Shown: positions 53,657 to 64,000 of the stretch, one piece after another | How positions within the stretch are numbered: the first letter of the stretch is position 1 | How the letters are laid out: each line of letters opens with the position of its first letter | NCBI GenBank assembly: GCA_028871795.1 | Contig: JAGWMG010000014.1 | Location: 28,272 to 92,271 of the forward strand | Length of the DNA stretch: 64,000 nt | Reading direction: 5' to 3' | DNA from: Alphaproteobacteria bacterium | Lineage (GTDB): Bacteria; Pseudomonadota; Alphaproteobacteria; Micropepsales; Micropepsaceae | The notes under the pieces: generated by a model | What the model saw: the letters and a program-made list of their open reading frames with translations, nothing else | What the model was told of the DNA's origin: nothing | Databases searched by the model: none | Program-made: the position numbers and the translations under genes

Positions 53657-53732
53657 GGGGCCATAGCTCAGCTGGGAGAGCGCCTGCATGGCATGCAGGA
53701 GGTCAGCGGTTCGATCCCGCTTGGCTCCACCA
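53657..53732 (+). tRNA. tRNA-Ala (GGC anticodon)
   Basis: GGGGCCATAGCTCAGCTGGGAGAGCGCCTGCATGGCATGCAGGAGGTCAGCGGTTCGATCCCGCTTGGCTCCACCA; cloverleaf pairs; anticodon loop ATGGCAT. Confidence 0.97.
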
Positions 53733-53733
53733 C
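53719..53733. repeat. attL core at tRNA-Ala 3' end
   Basis: GCTTGGCTCCACCAC, repeated exactly at 63701-63715. Confidence 0.8.
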
Positions 53734-53822
53734 TCATCATTGAAATATAAGGATAATTTCGAGTTTTTTATCCTTACCTACACAAGCACCCGCCAAACGG
53801 CGTGACATCGTGTGAGACGCAG

Positions 53823-54506
53823 TTAGACCGCCTGAACTAAGCTCGGATCATCGTTTTTCACGTTGCCCACAGCTTTCGTGACCGGCCAAGCCGTCATGCG
53901 CCCGGCTGGAAACGGGGCCAGCATTGCCTTGAGCCGATCCGGCGCAACCGGCCCCGCCCCCTCGCCTAACCAGCGCGGCCAATTATCGGGTGCAAGGATC
54001 ACCGGCATTCGATCATGCAACGGCGCAATCAATTCGTTCGCTGTTGTCGTGATGATTGTGAACGTCTCAATTAGATCGCTCACGTCATTCGGTTTCCAAT
54101 GCTCAAACAGGCCCGCAAACGCAAACGGTGCATTGTCCTTCAAAGTGATGAAGTACGGTTGTTTCGCTTTAGCAGATTCCTTTTTCCATTCGTAAAATCC
54201 ATCTGCAATGACAAGGCAGCGGCGACGCTGAAATGCGTTCTTGTAGGCAGGCTTGTCCGCAACCGTTTCTGCACGCGCGTTTATCAATTTTGCGCCGCCG
54301 TTCGCATCTTTTGCCCACGATGGAACGAGGCCCCATTTTAGAAACGCAATTTCGCGTGTGCCGTCTTCCAATCGAACAACAGGCGCAATTTGCGTCGGGG
54401 CGATATTGTATCGCGGCCGGAAATTTGATTGTGGGAAGCCGACAGACAGCATGTAGAGCGCGTGAAGCTCGCGCCATGTGTAGCGATTAGTAAAGCGACC
54501 GCACAT
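53823..54506 (-). CDS. SRAP (SOS response-associated peptidase/YedK-like) protein
   Basis: MCGRFTNRYTWRELH...RYNIAPTQIAPVVR...WGLVPSWAKDANGGAKLINARAETVADKPAYKNAFQRRRCLVIADGFYEWKKE; catalytic Cys2. Confidence 0.95.
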   Translation of the reverse strand: MCGRFTNRYTWRELHALYMLSVGFPQSNFRPRYNIAPTQIAPVVRLEDGTREIAFLKWGLVPSWAKDANGGAKLINARAETVADKPAYKNAFQRRRCLVIADGFYEWKKESAKAKQPYFITLKDNAPFAFAGLFEHWKPNDVSDLIETFTIITTTANELIAPLHDRMPVILAPDNWPRWLGEGAGPVAPDRLKAMLAPFPAGRMTAWPVTKAVGNVKNDDPSLVQAV

Positions 54507-54516
54507 AGCGTCACTA

Positions 54517-55071
54517 TTAGGCAAAAATTTCCGCGATGACCTTCAAAATCCGCTCTTGCAATAGCTCTTTCGTCAATTCGGAGATTTTTACTTCACCGGC
54601 AGGCCCACTATGTCCGCCACGTCCCGGCGAGGATGTAGATTCATGAAAGAGAACGGTCCCGCGCGATTTTTCGCAGATAACCGAAAAGCCCGGATACTCA
54701 TAGTCGGGAAGGTTGCGGTCCCCTAGAAGAAACGTCAGCCGAATTGAAGCCGGAACTTCGCGACGATCACGACCAGGTTCAAACCCACCATTCACCACTG
54801 AAATCTCATAGGTGTAGCCCTTGGCCTTGATGTACTCGCCAATCTCTTTCATTGCCGGGCCGATCAAGGTGTGCCGCACAACAGCGAACGCCTCAAGACA
54901 CTCATCCTCTTTGTTCTTTGCAATCCGTTGCACTTGAGCAGCAGCAGCTTTTGACGCTTCATGCTTTATAAAAACTGAGTCGAGTTTGGTTTGAAGTTCG
55001 TCTTTCATGTCGTTCGTCCCAAAATTTGCAGTCAGAATTTCAGTGAGTAGTGTGTCTGTCGATACAAGCAT
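54517..55071 (-). CDS. Hypothetical protein (mobile element)
   Basis: 184-aa ORF on the element's coding strand; start could be the internal MKDELQTK. Confidence 0.6.
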   Translation of the reverse strand: MLVSTDTLLTEILTANFGTNDMKDELQTKLDSVFIKHEASKAAAAQVQRIAKNKEDECLEAFAVVRHTLIGPAMKEIGEYIKAKGYTYEISVVNGGFEPGRDRREVPASIRLTFLLGDRNLPDYEYPGFSVICEKSRGTVLFHESTSSPGRGGHSGPAGEVKISELTKELLQERILKVIAEIFA

Positions 55072-55274
55072 AATTTCAAGTTGAGACTGTAGCGACCACG
55101 AAGCAGAACAAAAATCGTGCTTTGCCCTATTTCTTGGTCGCTAAAAAAAGACGCATTGCCTAGTTGCGGGGGTGTTTGTGTGGTTTACACCTTGCACGTC
55201 GAATATCATCAATGAATTCAACACATAATGGCGGACTGATCCTCCGCCTTTGTTCGATTTGCCCACATTGAATG

Positions 55275-55501
55275 TATAGTGCAGCGGCAGAGAATATAGC
55301 GAGTTGTAGAGTAGCTAACTCATTGGTTTACTTACATATATAGTATATATAGTAGTATAGTAGTAGTGAGAGGGGGTTTTCTAATTACGCAATAATGTTT
55401 CAATCCAGGTTGTCGGGGTTTGTGAGTGACAAGCACTATATTTGCTAAATCGCTATATATCGTTCTATTTCAAATAGTTAGGCACTATACGCGGCACTAT
55501 A
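55275..55501. repeat. Cluster of four GCACTATA 8-mers (candidate iterons)
   Basis: TATAGTGC 55275-55282 (inverted); GCACTATA 55433-55440, 55482-55489, 55494-55501; AT-rich, ORF-poor segment. Confidence 0.6.
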
Positions 55502-55713
55502 AAAGCGGCGTGTGCAATCTGGCCCACCTCAATCGACCGTGCCCGGCACCGTCCCCTTTCATGTGCGCAATCCCCGGCGTCCTGCCCGAACGAGGCTCGC
55601 CTGAGTCGATTGTCGCCATAGCGGCTAGGGTGTGGACACGGACACGCGGAACGGCCTCAGCGAGTCTCTTTGTGGGCACACTGAGGATTGCCCGATGCCA
55701 GTCCCTGTCGAAT

Positions 55714-56154
55714 TCAGTGAATTGAATTCAAAATCGTTTCTTCAATTTTGCCGCGAGACTCACACGCTACATCTCCGACAGGATTGCGGTACAAATCTCC
55801 CAGGGTTTGATGATATGTGGCATTGATGCTGACTTGAGTACGCATGTCGGCTAGCTTCTGTACGAAAACATTTAGCGACACGGAACTATTCAGCGGCTGC
55901 GTCATCGGATGACTGCCACAATCCGCGTCGCCAACATCGAATGAAAGTCTTTCGGCATAGATCACACCGCTGTCCTTAGCGATGGTTTTGATCGGAATAT
56001 TGTTGGTCGCAAAGAATTGAACCGTTTGCGTCCAAACCGTGTCGAATCCTTCGTTATAGACCCGACTATGCTCAAAGTCAGTTTTGACGGGCGCGGTAGC
56101 GCATCCCGCAACAAATATAAGTGCTGTCGTTGCGATCAAATGTAAGCGCTTCAT
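55714..56154 (-). CDS. Hypothetical lipoprotein
   Basis: MKRLHLIATTALIFVAGCATAPVKTDFEHSRVYNEGFDTVW; lipobox VAGC. Confidence 0.75.
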   Translation of the reverse strand: MKRLHLIATTALIFVAGCATAPVKTDFEHSRVYNEGFDTVWTQTVQFFATNNIPIKTIAKDSGVIYAERLSFDVGDADCGSHPMTQPLNSSVSLNVFVQKLADMRTQVSINATYHQTLGDLYRNPVGDVACESRGKIEETILNSIH

Positions 56155-56346
56155 TGTTGCCTCCAAATAGTCAGAGCCTTCGCATGTCAACTCTGATCCC
56201 CGCTGCAACTTATTCCTACAACTTATTGTTGACAACGGATAACTGGGCAACGCTTCATTGTCTCAACAATAGACGGATTCTAAATTTGATTGCGATAAGA
56301 CGCCTGCTACTTGAATTAGCGAGACACGTTTCAATCGTGTGGACAC

Positions 56347-56622
56347 CTATTCCTGCCCCGTCACCTCCCGCAACACGGCGGCATAGCCCACAAGGTCAAC
56401 CACGCTGTCACGGTGGCGCGGATCATGGCAAAGGCGGGTTAGCTTCAAATCCATCATGCACAAGACGGCCTCCGCTGGCGTGACGGTGCGCCCTAACGTG
56501 ATTGACCATCGCCGGGCAACATTCTCAAAAAACAAAACAGGATCGCCATACGATTTGCGGCGTCCATCAACCGTGCGTGCGGCCTCTGCCAACAAGTCTG
56601 AATTTGCGGAATGCTTTTTCAT
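56347..56622 (-). CDS. DUF6378-like phage-associated protein
   Basis: LLAEAARTVDGRRKSYGDPVLFFENVARRWSITLG...VLCMMDLKLTRLCHDPRHRDSVVDLVGYAAV. Confidence 0.75.
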   Translation of the reverse strand: MKKHSANSDLLAEAARTVDGRRKSYGDPVLFFENVARRWSITLGRTVTPAEAVLCMMDLKLTRLCHDPRHRDSVVDLVGYAAVLREVTGQE

Positions 56623-56626
56623 TCAC

Positions 56627-58009
56627 TCAATATCCGGCGAGCTTCACGCGCTGCATTTCAGACCGCAATTTAAGGCAACCATATCGAACAGCATCGGCGG
56701 CATGATCCGGCCCTTGCGAGTCAACATCTTCAACTCGTTTCATATCGCGACCGAGATAGGGCACGGTTTCCCAAAAGTAGGTGCAACCACGGCTTACATA
56801 CAGGCCGGGAACATCGGGCTTGCCAGCGTCTTGCAGCAACCGGCGCATCATGTTCCAGCCGGTAATTCGATCCGCTTTCTTCGCGGGTCTAAAGTACACT
56901 CCGCAGCGTGTGAATTCATCGGCGATGCTGCCGGTACTGTGGCCCGTCTTGGCAAAGCAGGCATCGTCCGCGACACCTTGGGGCCTAATTTTCCATCGCT
57001 TGCACATGGCGACAATTTCTTCGGCCAGGATCGGCACGGTCCAGCCTAAGCCCTCGTTAGGACGGTCGGGCTTGTTGGTCGCAAGCTCGTCCACAAGGAT
57101 CAAACTATCGCGCGGATACCAACGACCATCCGGGCCTTCGGCACCCGGAGATTTCACAACAACGTAAGTCGCGGACGGTGCAGAGCTTCCAAAATCGTGG
57201 GCAAGGTAGTTTTCCCACATGCCCCAGCCGCGTGTCGGTATCGCTTGCCACGGATCAATTGCATTTCGTTTTTCATCTAAGACGGATGCGAAATATGCAC
57301 CGCGCGAAACCGTCCAATCGCCCTCAACCCACGCACGCAACAACTCAGGATCATGTGGGCACGAACTTTCGAGTTGGTCGCGGTATTGATCGCGGTCAAT
57401 AAATTGATTTTCAGAAAACGTCGAAGGTGCATAGACCCAAGTGCGCTTAGATTTTTCTTCATAGAACGGTGTCCAAGGCGCGGCTTTGAAAACATATCGT
57501 TTCGCAACCCACGCATGACCGGGACCACCGGGATTTGCGGCGAACACTACGCGCACCGGAACATCTTTCGGGCCGCGAAGATTTGAACGAAGCAAATCTA
57601 AAAGATCAGGGGTTTCAAATTGTCCAATTTCATCGCCCATCAACAACGTGAAAGAACGGCCTTGGTACTTTGCATAATCGCCATGCGTTTCAAGCTGGCC
57701 CAATTCGAGATAGGCATTATTTGGGAATCGCCACACATGCTCTGCACCGTTGTAGCGAGCGCCATTGCCGTACACTTTGCCGAATAGCTCCCGCGTCAAC
57801 AATTCAAAATCGGCAAGTCCTTTGTAAGTTTTTCGGATGTAGAGAACTCGCGCGCGCTCGTCATATTGCTCGACGTGACGAAGCCCTAGCACCCCCAAAC
57901 CATACGATTTACCACCGCCGCGCCCACCGCCACAAAAAACGTCAAGTTCCTCTGGCAACAACAACGTTTTGTGTTGAAACTCGTTCAATGGAATTGTCTC
58001 TTGGTTCAT
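56627..58009 (-). CDS. Phage terminase large subunit
   Basis: FCGGGRGGGKSYGLGVLGLRHVEQY Walker A; DFGSSAPSATYVV nuclease motif; FAANPGGPGHAWVAKRYV. Confidence 0.92.
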   Translation of the reverse strand: MNQETIPLNEFQHKTLLLPEELDVFCGGGRGGGKSYGLGVLGLRHVEQYDERARVLYIRKTYKGLADFELLTRELFGKVYGNGARYNGAEHVWRFPNNAYLELGQLETHGDYAKYQGRSFTLLMGDEIGQFETPDLLDLLRSNLRGPKDVPVRVVFAANPGGPGHAWVAKRYVFKAAPWTPFYEEKSKRTWVYAPSTFSENQFIDRDQYRDQLESSCPHDPELLRAWVEGDWTVSRGAYFASVLDEKRNAIDPWQAIPTRGWGMWENYLAHDFGSSAPSATYVVVKSPGAEGPDGRWYPRDSLILVDELATNKPDRPNEGLGWTVPILAEEIVAMCKRWKIRPQGVADDACFAKTGHSTGSIADEFTRCGVYFRPAKKADRITGWNMMRRLLQDAGKPDVPGLYVSRGCTYFWETVPYLGRDMKRVEDVDSQGPDHAADAVRYGCLKLRSEMQRVKLAGY

Positions 58010-58427
58010 GTTCTATAACCTTTGTCAGCTTTGAAAATTCGTCCATAGAAATTGCACCGGGCAACTGAAAATTGATTTGAATTTTATTTCCGGTTTCCGC
58101 TTGGTCCCCTTCGCGGTACCCGTGACGGCTTTTCAACAAGAACATTGCGGCAGTTGCATTTCCCTTTTCCATTGCCTGCCGGTAAAGCATGTTGTGCAGC
58201 GCATAGCGTTCTTTCTCGCGCCCATTATCAAATGCTTCCTGCAACTCCGCGTGTTCATCAAGCCACTTGCGGAACGTATCTTGCGCCACGCCTAGTCCGG
58301 CGGCGACGCCACGAATTGAAAAGCCATCCGCTGCGAACGCTTCAATGCGTGTCGCGGCATCGCGCGGCGGTTGTTTCGGCTTGCGGCCTTTAGCAAGTAA
58401 CGGCCTGTCAGTAATCTTGCGCGTCAT
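57942..58427 (-). CDS. Probable terminase small subunit/HTH protein
   Basis: IEAFAADGFSIRGVAAGLGVAQDTFRKWLDEHAELQEAFDNGREKERYALHNMLYRQAMEKGNATAAMFLLKSRHGYREGD; directly upstream of TerL. Confidence 0.8.
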   Translation of the reverse strand: MTRKITDRPLLAKGRKPKQPPRDAATRIEAFAADGFSIRGVAAGLGVAQDTFRKWLDEHAELQEAFDNGREKERYALHNMLYRQAMEKGNATAAMFLLKSRHGYREGDQAETGNKIQINFQLPGAISMDEFSKLTKVIEHEPRDNSIERVSTQNVVVARGT

Positions 58428-58464
58428 TTCAAAATCCAATTCAATTAATTCTGTGCAAGCACAA

Positions 58465-59196
58465 TCAATTCTGCATCGCCTTTGCGCGTGCCACACCATA
58501 GGAGGTCAGCAACGCACCAAATGCCCACGCAGCTTTGTGGGCATGGTGCATCAATTCGGTGTCTCTCTCATAATGCTTGTCAGCGGCACTCGACTGCGCA
58601 AGTCGTTCAAAAATCTCTTCGCGCGTGCACTGGTCCTTTGCAATATCGGCATCAATTGGCGCATTCCAGGCAGCAATTCTTTCCGCCGTGCCGCCGTGCG
58701 TAGCCCTGCGAGCGCGGTTGGAAACAAAGGCATCCTCAATAACTGCAAGCAAAATCAGCAACCAAGTTATATTCTGGCTCTCCACTTCAACGTGGACGTT
58801 GCGATACGCGGTCCAGAACATTTGTGCGAGACTTTCGCTGTGCCCTTGCATTTCAAACGGCAGATGCACTTCCTTAGAGAGCTTGTCAGCTTTTTGGTCC
58901 GCTTCCTTGGCGTGTTTTGCAGATAGTGCTGCGTCGTGTCGTGCATCGACCGGCTTGCGATTTTTGTAAGGCAGTTGAAACAACGTCTCTGCTTCACGGA
59001 AGCCGAACGCGGCGGCACGCAGCTTGGCGATATTTTCGAGAGTTTCGCCTTCACGTCTAGCGACGCCACCGGCTGCGCATTCAAGATCAGCCGCAGCATC
59101 GAGAATTCCGACAATGTAGCGGGGATCGCCGTCAACAATTTCACGCATTTGAGTATTCCCATATAGGCAAGAGTGGAAAGCATTTGCGCTGCCCAC
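58465..59196 (-). CDS. Hypothetical protein (mobile element)
   Basis: Long ORF on the element's coding strand; probable start at MREIVDGDPRYIVG; no family recognised. Confidence 0.5.
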   Translation of the reverse strand: MGSANAFHSCLYGNTQMREIVDGDPRYIVGILDAAADLECAAGGVARREGETLENIAKLRAAAFGFREAETLFQLPYKNRKPVDARHDAALSAKHAKEADQKADKLSKEVHLPFEMQGHSESLAQMFWTAYRNVHVEVESQNITWLLILLAVIEDAFVSNRARRATHGGTAERIAAWNAPIDADIAKDQCTREEIFERLAQSSAADKHYERDTELMHHAHKAAWAFGALLTSYGVARAKAMQN

Positions 59197-59204
59197 CGCT
59201 GCAA

Positions 59205-59933
59205 TTATTCAGCATCAGCAGGAATTGGTTTCGTGCCCGGCAGAGGTTGTGGCGTCTCGCGCGCTGGCGTGGGAAAAATGTTTTCGGCTTCTCGCATGGC
59301 GCGCGCGTCCTGCAACTTTTGAACGCTAACCGCCTTCTGCGTACCGGCAGCAATTCGATAACTTGAAAGCGCAGCAGCGGCGTGCGCTTGTGCGACCGCG
59401 ACGGCCTGCAACACTTCGTCGCGGCCTTCGTATTTGAATTTCTCAAGAATGGAGACGCGGGTGAATACTTCCTTGAAATCCTCTTGACGCGCACGCTGCA
59501 AGCTCACGCGATAGATTTGGTATCCCGTCGCGATGTCGTTCTTCGCAATTGCCGCGTCCAGGTGAAGCTTTACGAGCGGCGCAGGCAGGTGAAGCAATTC
59601 TTGAAAAAGTTGATTGCGAAGTGAAGCATCGCCCGATTTCCCGCTCCCGAATTCGGCTTGGCTTGCAAGAAACGCGAGGTTCTCATGGAATTGTTTTTCG
59701 GCTTTGAGTTCTTCGCCAATCGTTGTTGCCTCCCTCCACAGAGGGACCATCGCTTCGGTGTGCTTTTTGCGCGCGTCAGCCACAAGCCTAATTTTTTTCT
59801 CCGCATCGTAACTGGCATTGTCTTGGATTGCTTCTACGTCTTGCAACGCCGCTTCCGCAGCCGCAGCTAGTTTTGTGGCGAGCGCTTTTGATTTGGCCGC
59901 TTTTGCTAGAATGTCTGATGGTGATAGTTTCAT
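59205..59933 (-). CDS. Hypothetical Ala/Lys-rich, likely coiled-coil protein (mobile element)
   Basis: MKLSPSDILAKAAKSKALATKLAAAAEAALQDVEAIQDNASYDAEKKIRLVADARKKHTEAM. Confidence 0.6.
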   Translation of the reverse strand: MKLSPSDILAKAAKSKALATKLAAAAEAALQDVEAIQDNASYDAEKKIRLVADARKKHTEAMVPLWREATTIGEELKAEKQFHENLAFLASQAEFGSGKSGDASLRNQLFQELLHLPAPLVKLHLDAAIAKNDIATGYQIYRVSLQRARQEDFKEVFTRVSILEKFKYEGRDEVLQAVAVAQAHAAAALSSYRIAAGTQKAVSVQKLQDARAMREAENIFPTPARETPQPLPGTKPIPADAE

Positions 59934-59987
59934 TTGAATTGGTCCTTCCTTCTATGGTTTCGGAAACCGCCGAAACACGGTTCACAT

Positions 59988-61376
59988 TCAATTTTCATCC
60001 GGCAAAAATACTTCCGGCTTTGAAATCATAAACGCTCGCGCATAGGTGCCAAATTGTTGCACCATTTGAGTTCTTGGGATTTCGCGAAGCTCATCATTCT
60101 CGCGCATATTTTGAAGCGTCGTTGTAATTGCCTTTGTCGCGCCGTATCGCGCCTTACGAAAGGCGGCGGTGTCACCAAGGCGGCGTTGCAGATAACTTTG
60201 CGGGATGACTCTCGCGGAGTGCAATTTTTCGCTAATGCCGTACTTCCGCAATTTCTCGAACGGTGTTGTGGCGTATTGGAACATTGCCTTGATAATCTCT
60301 TTGCGTCGTAGGTTTTCGTTGTCTTCAACAGCGCCCACTTCACCATTTGTGAATTTTGCCCTTAGCGCTATCGTTTGCGCGTGAATTTGATTGCACGCCC
60401 ATTGCGCTTGTTTCGCGTCGATAGTTGGAAAATGTGGATTGACGCCGACAGCTACAAGCGCCGCCAACTTAAGCGCCTTAAGGTGAGCGCGGTTCCATAG
60501 TTCGCGCCCCGCAACACATTCGTTATCATCATTGATTTGCGCATCGGCGTACTCATTGAACCGATCAAAAATTGCATCGGCGTCAGTATCCGCACGCACG
60601 TCATGCACTTGACCTGTCGCCGCATTTAGACCCGCACAATGCGCAACAAGTCCGGCCAGCCTCACTACAAGGTCCGGTGACGGGATCGCTTGATTGTGGG
60701 CTTTGCAGAGCGGAACACGTTTGCCGGTGTATTCGATAACAAGAAACCGTGGCAGCACGCCGTTTGAAATTAGCCCCTCGCTGATATTTTCAAAGAAAAC
60801 CTGCGGTGTCGTTTCACCTAGCAACGTGAACGCGGGAGCCGAAATGACCGGAGTGTTTTCTTCACGTTTTGAATATGCCATTGCGCCAAGTTTGCTTGTC
60901 TTTTTTGATTTGCTGTACAGATTGAGCAATGCGCGTTTTAGCCCGGCGACGTGTGCAGGTGCATGAGGCTCAGACATTTCTTTGAGTTTCAATCCGAGTT
61001 CGCCAACAACACAGTAGATACATGGCGAGTCAGCCAACCATTTCAATATTGCTTGAGCGGATGCAATCTCGGTCGGGCCTTTGAACTGTGTTGCAGTTGG
61101 TGCGGTTTGCGCGACCGCTTCCATGAGCGCATCAATGCCGTCGCTTGCAGCTTCTTTGCCGCGTCCGGTTTCAGCGATGATTATAATGTACTGATTTAGT
61201 CCTGTTCCGCTGACGTTATAAGCGCGTCCGGTAATTCCAGCGAACAAACCAATTGCACCCGCAAGCGCAATCTTAGCAACAGGACGCGGTGCAGCGTCAT
61301 AAATGAATTGCGCAATCTCCCCGACAAGGCCGGGTGGAAAGTCATTGCCCGTTTCTCCGGGCGTCGCAGTAGTCAT
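59988..61376 (-). CDS. DUF3987-type (primase/helicase-associated) protein
   Basis: RPVAKIALAGAIGLFAGITGRAYNVSGTGLNQYIIIIAETGRGKEAASDGIDALM; SAPAFTLLGETTPQVFFENISEGLISNGVLPRFLVIEY. Confidence 0.75.
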   Translation of the reverse strand: MTTATPGETGNDFPPGLVGEIAQFIYDAAPRPVAKIALAGAIGLFAGITGRAYNVSGTGLNQYIIIIAETGRGKEAASDGIDALMEAVAQTAPTATQFKGPTEIASAQAILKWLADSPCIYCVVGELGLKLKEMSEPHAPAHVAGLKRALLNLYSKSKKTSKLGAMAYSKREENTPVISAPAFTLLGETTPQVFFENISEGLISNGVLPRFLVIEYTGKRVPLCKAHNQAIPSPDLVVRLAGLVAHCAGLNAATGQVHDVRADTDADAIFDRFNEYADAQINDDNECVAGRELWNRAHLKALKLAALVAVGVNPHFPTIDAKQAQWACNQIHAQTIALRAKFTNGEVGAVEDNENLRRKEIIKAMFQYATTPFEKLRKYGISEKLHSARVIPQSYLQRRLGDTAAFRKARYGATKAITTTLQNMRENDELREIPRTQMVQQFGTYARAFMISKPEVFLPDEN

Positions 61377-61500
61377 TATAAAAGCGTCCTAAAATGATTG
61401 CGCAACTTGCGGAAATGCGATTGCCAACCGATTGAAATTGAAATGGTGCCACAGCGGGCACACGGTCTATATTGGGGATGATTTGATAATGGGGCATTGG

Positions 61501-61719
61501 TCAATCGACCTGAGCCGTCGTGCGAGCGGCCATCCAAGCACGCACATCTTCCACACGCCACGCGGTGCAACGCTCGCTTAATTTGATCGGCGCGATGAAC
61601 GTACCCGCTTTGACCTTGCGCCAGAGCGTCGCGCTACTAAACGGGATAATCGTCAGGAGCGTTGCCTGCCGAATGTATCCCGTGGCCGGTAGCTCACTGA
61701 GTTGTGCGGGGGTAGCCAT
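61501..61719 (-). CDS. AlpA-family HTH regulator/excisionase
   Basis: GYIRQATLLTIIPFSSATLWRKVKAGTFIAPIKLSERCTAWRVEDVRAWMAARTTA. Confidence 0.88.
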   Translation of the reverse strand: MATPAQLSELPATGYIRQATLLTIIPFSSATLWRKVKAGTFIAPIKLSERCTAWRVEDVRAWMAARTTAQVD

Positions 61720-61808
61720 TGACGCGTCCTCGTATTTGACGCGTAGAGACTGCCTATGAAATTACACGGCGTCTCCGGACAAATGTAGGTGGGGTATTGT
61801 CCGCTCGG

Positions 61809-62306
61809 CTATGGCTGGGCGCTTATTCGTATTCGATTGCGCGTAACTATTTTCTCTACCGCGTCTGGACTCATATTTAGTTCGGCAGCAACTTTCACGT
61901 ATACATCTTCCATGCTTTTCATAATGGGATCAGCAGCAGAAAATTTTGTCTTGTCGATTTGTTCGGGATAATCTTTTGCGTATACGCGCAACCAATTATA
62001 CAGAGAGACGTGAGTTAATACCGAGTGTTTGCGGTATATGGCCTTTTCTCGCTTCGTCGCTTTGAAAGTGCCTTTCAGCAGGTCAGCGACAAATTGAGAA
62101 GGCTCGCTTTCGGCAATTAGACCATGCTTGCATACTAGATTTGCGAGGCGGCTGCGATCCCCAGCTTTTGCCTCTAGGATTGCGAGCGGCCACACATTTC
62201 CATTTCGCGCTTCGGTACAAACCTGATCTACCTCCGACAACAACCCCATTTCAGGAAGCATATCTGTTACGACGCCGTTTCCGTCCTTATCTCTCAGCCG
62301 TCTCAT
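61809..62306 (-). CDS. Hypothetical protein translationally coupled to the integrase
   Basis: ATGA overlap with integrase stop; MRRLRDKDGNGVVTDMLPEMG...; no family recognised. Confidence 0.6.
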   Translation of the reverse strand: MRRLRDKDGNGVVTDMLPEMGLLSEVDQVCTEARNGNVWPLAILEAKAGDRSRLANLVCKHGLIAESEPSQFVADLLKGTFKATKREKAIYRKHSVLTHVSLYNWLRVYAKDYPEQIDKTKFSAADPIMKSMEDVYVKVAAELNMSPDAVEKIVTRNRIRISAQP

Positions 62307-63541
62307 GCGCGCACCTTCTTACTTTTTATCGAAACCACATTGCCACTTTCCGTTTTTGCACAGAATGCAGCCCAATCTTGCATCATCAATTTGCGTTTCT
62401 CAAACAAATCGCCCCGCCGATATGCAGCTTCAACTTTGTTCCCGATACTGTGGGCAAGCGCCATTTCGGCAGCATTGTGGGGGTAGTTCGTTTGTTCCGA
62501 GGCCCAATCCCGGAACGATGAACGGAAACCATGCACCACGGCGTTGACGCCCATGCGCCGCAAAACGGCAACCATCGTCATGTCGCTCATCGGCCCACCG
62601 CGCGAGGCCGGGAAAACTAAGGCCGTGCCCGCCATGCGGGGCAGAGCGCGTAGCAGCTTCACAGCGTCGGCGGATAGGGGCACGCGGTGTTCCTTGCCAG
62701 CCTTCATGCGTTCGGCAGGCACGGTCCACACAGCAGCTTCCATGTCGATTTCGGACCAAACCGAAAGGCGCACTTCGCCGCTGCGCGCGGCGGTCAAGAT
62801 CGCAAATTCAACCGCTCGCGCGCCCGTGCCTTCCTGCTTGCGAAGGCGTTTCATAAAGTCGCCCATTTCGGAAAACGGCAGGGCCGCGTAGTGCTTGACC
62901 TTGGCGATTTTGGCGGGCGCGGTGAGCGTCTTATCAAGGTGCCCCCGCCAGCGGGCCGGGTTAAGACCGTCCCGGTGCCCGCACACCGCCGCATAGTCCA
63001 ACACCTGTTCGATCCGGCCCCTCAACCGCGTGGCGGTTTCGGTTTTCGTCTGCCAAATCGGCTCTAGGATCGCCATGACGTGCGGCAATTCGACATCCCG
63101 CACCAACATGTTCCCGATTTTCGGGTAAGCGAAGCTGGCTAGGCTATGTCCCCACTGTTCGCGGTGCTTGGCGTTCCGCCACCCGGCTTCATGCGCAGCG
63201 ATGTAGTCTTCGGCACACGCCTTGAACGTTTTTTCCTTGCCCTGTGCAGCGCTCAGGGCCGACCGTGCGGCCTTCTTTTCCGCGATAGGGTCAATGCCCG
63301 CCCTGATCTGCTCGCGGGCCTGCCGTGCCGCGTCACGCGCGCCAGCGACCGTCAGAGTGGGGTAGCTGCCCAGCCCCATTTCGCGCCGCTTGACGCCCGC
63401 GCTGTACCGCAGCAGCCATGACCGCGCTCCGGCCTCAGTCACTTGAAGGGTGAGGCCGTCAACGCCGCCTACAGCGTGCGCGCCCGGTTCCGTCAAACGT
63501 GATACCGCCAAGGCCCCTAGCTCTTTCGCTTTGCGTGGCAT
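62303..63541 (-). CDS. Tyrosine recombinase/integrase (P4-like, DUF4102 N-terminus)
   Basis: GGVDGLTLQVTEAGARSWLLRYSAGVKRREMGLGSYPTLTVAGARDAARQAR; ILTAARSGEVRLSVWSEID; VHGFRSSFRDWASEQTNYPHNAAEMALAHSIGNKVEAAYRR. Confidence 0.96.
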   Translation of the reverse strand: MPRKAKELGALAVSRLTEPGAHAVGGVDGLTLQVTEAGARSWLLRYSAGVKRREMGLGSYPTLTVAGARDAARQAREQIRAGIDPIAEKKAARSALSAAQGKEKTFKACAEDYIAAHEAGWRNAKHREQWGHSLASFAYPKIGNMLVRDVELPHVMAILEPIWQTKTETATRLRGRIEQVLDYAAVCGHRDGLNPARWRGHLDKTLTAPAKIAKVKHYAALPFSEMGDFMKRLRKQEGTGARAVEFAILTAARSGEVRLSVWSEIDMEAAVWTVPAERMKAGKEHRVPLSADAVKLLRALPRMAGTALVFPASRGGPMSDMTMVAVLRRMGVNAVVHGFRSSFRDWASEQTNYPHNAAEMALAHSIGNKVEAAYRRGDLFEKRKLMMQDWAAFCAKTESGNVVSIKSKKVRA

Positions 63542-63700
63542 CCTTCCGCCCCTTCAATTTGACCCCATACCTACCCACCAATAGCTGCGCTATCTCGTGC
63601 GTTGTCAAGAGTCCGCATGAGACGATGCCATCGCGATAAATACTGTCAAATATGGATTTTTGAGACGGTGTGAGACGGGGTGAAGTTCGATTCCGGGGGA

Positions 63701-63715
63701 GCTTGGCTCCACCAC
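63701..63715. repeat. attR core
   Basis: Exact copy of GCTTGGCTCCACCAC from the tRNA-Ala 3' end. Confidence 0.8.
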
Positions 63716-63805: not shown

Positions 63806-63916
63806 GTGTGGCACGTTTACTGTCTTGAGCCGGATGCGGAGGATAAGGGCACGGCAAATTCCGGCTTGTGCGGCTGCGACAAATCCGACAAGACAGGAGC
63901 GCGCGGAGGCCGATAG
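63806..63916 (+). pseudogene. Possible GIY-YIG nuclease remnant flanking attR
   Basis: VWHVYCLEPDAEDKG... resembles the M-W-Y/H-V-Y-x-L-E start of GIY-YIG proteins but terminates early; preceded by palindromic spacer. Confidence 0.35.
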
Positions 63917-64000
63917 CATCGGTGGTGCGTTGTCGCGTGGGTTCTTCGAAAGGCGGGCGCATTGAGCGCATTCATCGACGCCCGGGCCGTCCCCGAAGGC

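Follow-up and report, generated by a model that had tools for sequence, protein, structure and literature searches.

A tRNA-Ala-integrated island with its own terminase and no portal, capsid or tail gene points to a family of satellite-like elements in Alphaproteobacteria

Our analysis of a 64,000-nucleotide stretch (henceforth the window) of contig JAGWMG010000014.1 from an alphaproteobacterium of the family Micropepsaceae (assembly GCA_028871795.1) uncovered an island at a tRNA-Ala gene that is probably an integrated phage satellite, which would bring its own terminase to the procapsid of a helper phage. The island is a bounded and intact 10-kb element with genes for integration, an excision-type function, a helicase and the TerS–TerL terminase pair, and it has no portal, capsid or tail gene. 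It thus displays the hallmarks of a satellite, i.e., a conserved, size-limited integrated element with a recombinase and att sites and no full virion set. The full virion set that marks a prophage is found neither in the window nor in the bounded members of the family described below, and a portal occurs only in cousins with respect to TerL (loci L064, L066, L067 and L070).

The integration target is a tRNA-Ala(GGC) gene (53657..53732, plus strand), called by both ARAGORN and Rfam, whose 3′ end constitutes attL. Its last bases plus one form the 15-mer GCTTGGCTCCACCAC, exact copies of which lie at 53719–53733 (attL core, plus strand) and 63701–63715 (attR core, plus strand), delimiting 9,982 bp from one copy to the other; these are the bounds that a previous sequence-only reading of this DNA had proposed. 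No longer exact direct repeat spans the island, and the chance of a preset 15-mer recurring in 10 kb is about 1e-5. The GC content falls from ~65% in the genome to ~51% inside the repeats, keeping mostly within 0.45–0.54 along the island. Only the integrase gene (62303–63541) is near the host value (0.64), which, as against ~0.51 elsewhere in the island, points to a mosaic origin. The contig (G000:C15) stops 285 bp beyond attR, leaving the right chromosomal flank nearly unseen and too short and repetitive for an empty-site search in the genus. Its final 149 bp (63852–64000 of the window) recur exactly, in inverted orientation, at the start of contig C2, and this shared repeat probably broke the assembly.

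Twelve open reading frames (ORFs) fill the island, every one of them intact and on the minus strand, in the following order: int, an ORF overlapping it by 4 nt, AlpA, helicase, two unknown ORFs, TerS, TerL, DUF6378, lipoprotein, an unknown ORF and SRAP. The ORF list bears out both the order and the one-strand layout as first read, and Pfam and PHROGs scans confirm Int, AlpA, TerS, TerL, DUF6378 and SRAP. The front of the island codes for a 412-aa tyrosine integrase (62303..63541) with arm-binding, core-binding and catalytic domains; a 165-aa protein, P2 (61809..62306), whose start shares 4 nt (ATGA) with the int stop; and a 72-aa AlpA-type excisionase or regulator (61501..61719; phrog_66; PF05930, 24.6 bits against a cutoff of 21). 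The next gene had been taken for a DUF3987-type gene; its 462-aa product, Hel (59988..61376), a replicative helicase, has no DUF3987 match and instead corresponds to the C-terminal helicase half of the phrog_3022 “DNA primase”, a Septimatrevirus-type primase-helicase (E=1.4e-128; profile positions 356–782 of 788), being 48% identical to residues 328–771 of Kakheti25 gp38. The terminase comprises a 185-aa TerS (57942..58499; phrog_309, E=4.7e-16) and a 460-aa TerL (56627..58009; phrog_2, 2e-23; PF04466, 1e-8), the latter intact at the positions of its ATPase and nuclease motifs. Since no ORF besides Int, Hel and TerL (412, 462 and 460 aa) exceeds 243 aa, the island has no room for an ordinary portal or major capsid gene, and profiles for portals and major capsid proteins found no match anywhere in the window. 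ORF sizes and profile searches hence uphold the initial observation of a terminase without portal, capsid or tail genes.

The same plan, i.e., int, AlpA, primase/helicase, TerS and TerL with no portal, recurs in three other alphaproteobacterial genomes at tRNA-Thr and tRNA-Ser genes. Among 96 genomes of the host's taxonomic family there is one other close TerL relative (G013), whose neighborhood encodes Int, a 4-nt-overlapping ORF, AlpA, a primase, TerS, TerL and a 252-aa ORF, followed by Dcm and Vsr, and is bounded by exact 39-bp copies of the tRNA-Thr 3′ end, 11,993 bp apart. The two best additional TerL matches from a sample of 385 genomes of the class belong to elements of the same arrangement at a tRNA-Ser (G358, whose integrase is 55% identical to that of the island) and a tRNA-Thr (G241); the surroundings of weaker TerL matches in G185 and G213 are, to judge by gene size and order, those of ordinary prophages. 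A survey of 399 genomes of the phylum yielded no further close TerL. Partial relatives were also observed: the genome G020, of the same genus as the window, has AlpA (66% identity), the helicase (50%) and P5 (77%) beside the same tRNA-Ala, next to aroA and inverted with respect to the island (L016:1-4039; contig G020:C37), in a piece that is cut by the contig end and shows no int or terminase within its visible part. An element in G090 has the helicase and a C9-like protein (see below) and no TerL.

In IMG/VR, where searches with single-sequence TerL patterns returned nothing, a four-sequence TerL alignment retrieved 80 loci. Those numbered L037–L063, mostly on contigs of 4–17 kb, have TerLs 49–76% identical to that of the window, and in many of them the order of int, AlpA, primase and TerS is that of the island. 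Nine IMG/VR contigs of 7.7–13.7 kb are closed, with tRNA repeats or overlapping ends as their bounds: L040 (13.5 kb), L043 (9.8 kb), L059 (13.7 kb), L062 (10.1 kb), L073 (11.9 kb) and L077 (11.4 kb), and the circles L049 (9.8 kb), L063 (7.7 kb) and L071 (8.5 kb). In the L063 circle a tRNA T-arm lies just upstream of int, matching what is expected of attP. Thus, the syntenic, size-conserved and tRNA-integrated family sought as a check on the first reading does exist, comprising the elements of G013, G358 and G241 together with the bounded or circular IMG/VR contigs. The TerS cluster is present in 23 loci, and TerS and TerL are retained together in nearly all members. As separate observations, the presumed attP of the circular L049 holds an entire tRNA-Val-like gene (L049:3587-3666), and in one lineage (L044–L048, L052, L053 and L078) TerL is broken into successive ORFs of about 48, 278 and 81–88 aa, with the breaks at shared positions, in contigs from several samples; an intron, a frameshift or a shared inactivation are possible explanations of this split.

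The family members differ in the virion parts they encode, as revealed when their non-core proteins were scanned with PHROG and Pfam and with profiles built for this analysis. No bounded member has a portal; phrog_145 portals are confined to the true phages L064, L066, L067 and L070, with a fragment in L069. Several loci possess a phrog_247 capsid protein (L041–L043, L049–L051, L054, L055 and L062), accompanied in L041, L042, L043, L062 and, weakly, L055 by a phrog_206 scaffold protein. Others bear a phrog_169 neck protein (L037, L038, L040, L057 and L059), an adaptor (L051 and L072), or, next to TerS–TerL, a tape measure gene that could reset tail length (L039, L057, L058 and L061). A further group encodes a 220–411-aa helical protein, C9 (L017, L018, L030, L037, L038, L040, L048, L056–L061, L063, L065, L069, L071, L078 and L079). 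C9 is predicted to be all-helical in a model with a predicted local distance difference test (pLDDT) score of 90.5, which has no fold match with E<0.001 in PDB and BFVD, and its G013 member matched none of 50,697 phage records. Capsid and C9 never occur in one element, and the TerL tree implies no fewer than five switches between these states; as partial contigs have incomplete contents, this exclusion is firmest in the bounded L043, L049 and L062 (capsid) versus L017, L030, L040, L059, L063 and L071 (C9).

In the island itself, the place of the capsid-scaffold or C9 genes of other members is occupied by P5 (242 aa; 59205..59933), predicted to be all-helical, and P6 (243 aa; 58465..59196), an orphan. 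Based on this position, our guess is that P5, as a candidate capsid-redirecting protein, might redirect or tune the assembly of the helper capsid, perhaps along with P6. P5 has no phage or PHROG match, and neither protein has relatives in IMG/VR. As candidate relatives of the two we considered C9, C10, C13 and the scaffold and neck proteins, none of which was supported by hhalign. The predicted structure of P5, with a mean pLDDT of 58.8, is too low in confidence for a fold search, and the likeness of its modeled helix layout to that of C9 is only suggestive. The ratio of nonsynonymous to synonymous change (pN/pS) is 0.21–0.23 for TerL (window versus L037 and L039), where synonymous sites are saturated and the direction is still clear, 0.26 for P5 (window versus G020), and 0.36–0.46 for TerS, Hel, AlpA and Int. 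Thus, TerL and P5 are under purifying selection and the proteins are maintained.

The main alternative is that the island is a decayed prophage, stripped of head, tail and lysis genes, in which int, replication and terminase genes are left by chance. In its favor, TerL and the helicase are of tailed-phage origin, the primase half of the latter is gone, and at this same tRNA-Ala the G020 genome holds the partial relative described above, with no int or terminase in view. A phylogenetic tree of TerL also speaks to this origin: the window sequence groups with those of the satellites and of the portal phages L064, L066, L067 and L070 in a single clade, which has strong support and excludes all other phage TerLs, and close TerLs of portal-bearing phages are seen both outside and inside the family. 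Hence, descent of the element from a phage is likely, going by these TerL relationships, its present state being that of a maintained element. Against decay as the explanation of that state, every ORF is intact, the same capsid-less and portal-less plan is seen at several tRNAs and as circles of 7.7–9.8 kb, and TerL and P5 have been under purifying selection over a long divergence; repeated chance loss is unlikely to have arrived at the same gene set. We therefore regard decay as unlikely. Between the satellite and the stripped prophage that the sequence-only reading had both entertained, the syntenic tRNA-integrated family, its circular forms and the purifying selection support the satellite.

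A second alternative, which we consider somewhat more improbable still, is a satellite that uses the whole packaging machinery of its helper, with TerS and TerL mainly blocking helper packaging as a form of interference or defense. It is common for the packaging proteins of satellites to interfere with the helper, the SRAP, P11 and lipoprotein genes of the island look like cargo, and other members bear restriction-modification genes; however, keeping a complete TerL, conserved at its ATPase and nuclease positions, would be costly for interference alone, and TerS and TerL are retained jointly in nearly all members. The possibility that the island is moved by general transduction or by a gene-transfer agent, agents of this kind being frequent in Alphaproteobacteria, with the terminase as an idle passenger, appears very remote in view of the circular IMG/VR members with attP-like sites and the conservation of terS–terL under selection.

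Returning to the satellite interpretation, several observations weigh against it. The primase half is absent from Hel, and the comparison of P5 with the C9 profiles gave an hhalign probability of 0.1%. A grouping of the satellites that leaves out the portal phages L064, L066, L067 and L070, i.e., an exclusive satellite TerL clade, is rejected (approximately unbiased test, p=5e-5); with portal phages inside and the satellites not forming one clade, TerL alone does not define satellites. This rejection also implies more than one origin of the satellites or an exchange of TerL between them and phages. Furthermore, none of the 96 host-family genomes has a prophage with a phrog_145 portal, in a search that matched in no control genome either, and for the window strain the satellite interpretation is a reading of its genes.

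Judging from this gene content, packaging redirection and its helper could be pictured as follows: Infection or induction by a helper phage would turn on AlpA, and Int with P2 would excise the element, which would then replicate by means of its own helicase and a borrowed primase. Its TerS would mark the satellite DNA, and its TerL would dock onto the helper portal and pump this DNA into helper procapsids, to be completed by helper tails and released in helper particles. The portal, scaffold and capsid proteins of the portal phages within the TerL clade belong to the families that also supply the satellite parts, which makes these phages the likely helper type, and the lack of such a portal prophage in the 96 genomes makes a virulent helper possible.

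By their defining features, the island is satellite-like yet outside the known capsid-forming phage-inducible chromosomal islands (cfPICIs), PICIs and Staphylococcus aureus pathogenicity islands (SaPIs), phage-inducible chromosomal minimalist islands (PICMIs) and P4-like elements. Like cfPICIs, it has its own TerS and TerL and an int plus AlpA-type front, and some family members have their own capsid and scaffold; however, cfPICIs have their own genes for capsid, protease, portal and connectors and require nothing but tails (PMC10690885), whereas the island has no capsid gene and the bounded members no portal. The Streptomyces satellites MulchRoom and MiniFlayer, whose helpers are virulent, share with it a satellite-encoded terminase, but carry portal, capsid, scaffold and adaptor and have no primase (PMC10690885). 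With the small PICMIs of Vibrionaceae, in which the iolg gene of PICMI115 overlaps int by 4 nt and is essential for excision (PMC10803314), the island shares the order int, 4-nt-overlapping ORF, alpA and a gene at the prim position, and the want of recognized capsid-remodeling genes. This last gene is a helicase only, and P2 is a candidate counterpart of iolg by its position; moreover, PICMIs adjoin fis and are devoid of terS or other packaging genes, in contrast to the terS–terL-bearing family in tRNA genes. PICIs and SaPIs likewise combine int, a regulator, replication genes and TerS, but SaPIs use the helper TerL, whereas the island carries TerL too; PICI-specific packaging and interference proteins found no match in the island with PHROGs, Pfam and NCBIfam. 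P4-like elements resemble it in tRNA integration, AlpA and a primase/helicase, and differ in using the helper terminase; the same three collections detected no Psu, Sid, Delta or alpha-type primase in the island. Finally, the marine VEIMEs (virion-encapsidated integrative mobile elements) and tycheposons are integrated, virion-packaged islands, some reported to have capsid-assembly or packaging genes. A literature search, with the primary papers on VEIMEs and tycheposons outside the comparison, brought up no account of satellites from Alphaproteobacteria or of satellites with a TerL and no capsid. The family thus appears to be widespread and undescribed, with overlap with VEIMEs and tycheposons being possible.

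More broadly, we tentatively propose, at a little under an even chance, a large undescribed class of “motor-carrying” satellites that have their own TerS–TerL, always borrow the helper's portal, and plug single interchangeable virion parts (capsid plus scaffold, a 250-aa helical protein of the C9 type, here P5, or neck or tape measure) into the helper particle, a modular hybrid-virion strategy between those of PICIs and cfPICIs. The satellites known so far depend on the helper for the motor, as do P4, SaPI and PICMI, or bring a complete head module, as do cfPICIs; if true, a widespread family with a motor and never a portal would be an intermediate between these two types and would show satellites and phages swapping virion parts one by one. 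It would make testable which parts must match, be it TerL and portal, capsid or C9, in a bacterial class for which our literature search found satellites to be hardly known.

The remainder of the island lies downstream of TerL. It starts with a 91-aa DUF6378 protein (56347..56622; PF19905, E=3e-22) and a 178-aa lipoprotein-like cargo protein (55714..56250; weak LPAM_1), followed by an A+T-rich non-coding gap (55072..55713) that is a candidate origin or packaging site, in which RNA family and repeat searches gave nothing besides tRNA and weak repeats. P11 (184 aa; 54517..55071) is cargo of unknown kind without a meaningful family match, its similarity to SopE2 (19 bits against a model cutoff of 205) being due to chance. 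The last gene codes for a 233-aa SRAP protein of the HMCES/YedK type (53823..54524; PF02586; NF007413, 6e-35, below that model's cutoff). At the cargo end of some other members (L017:3873-6088; L073:9310-11919) we observed genes for Dcm, HNH and Vsr or an apparent restriction-modification pair, resembling known satellite defense hotspots.

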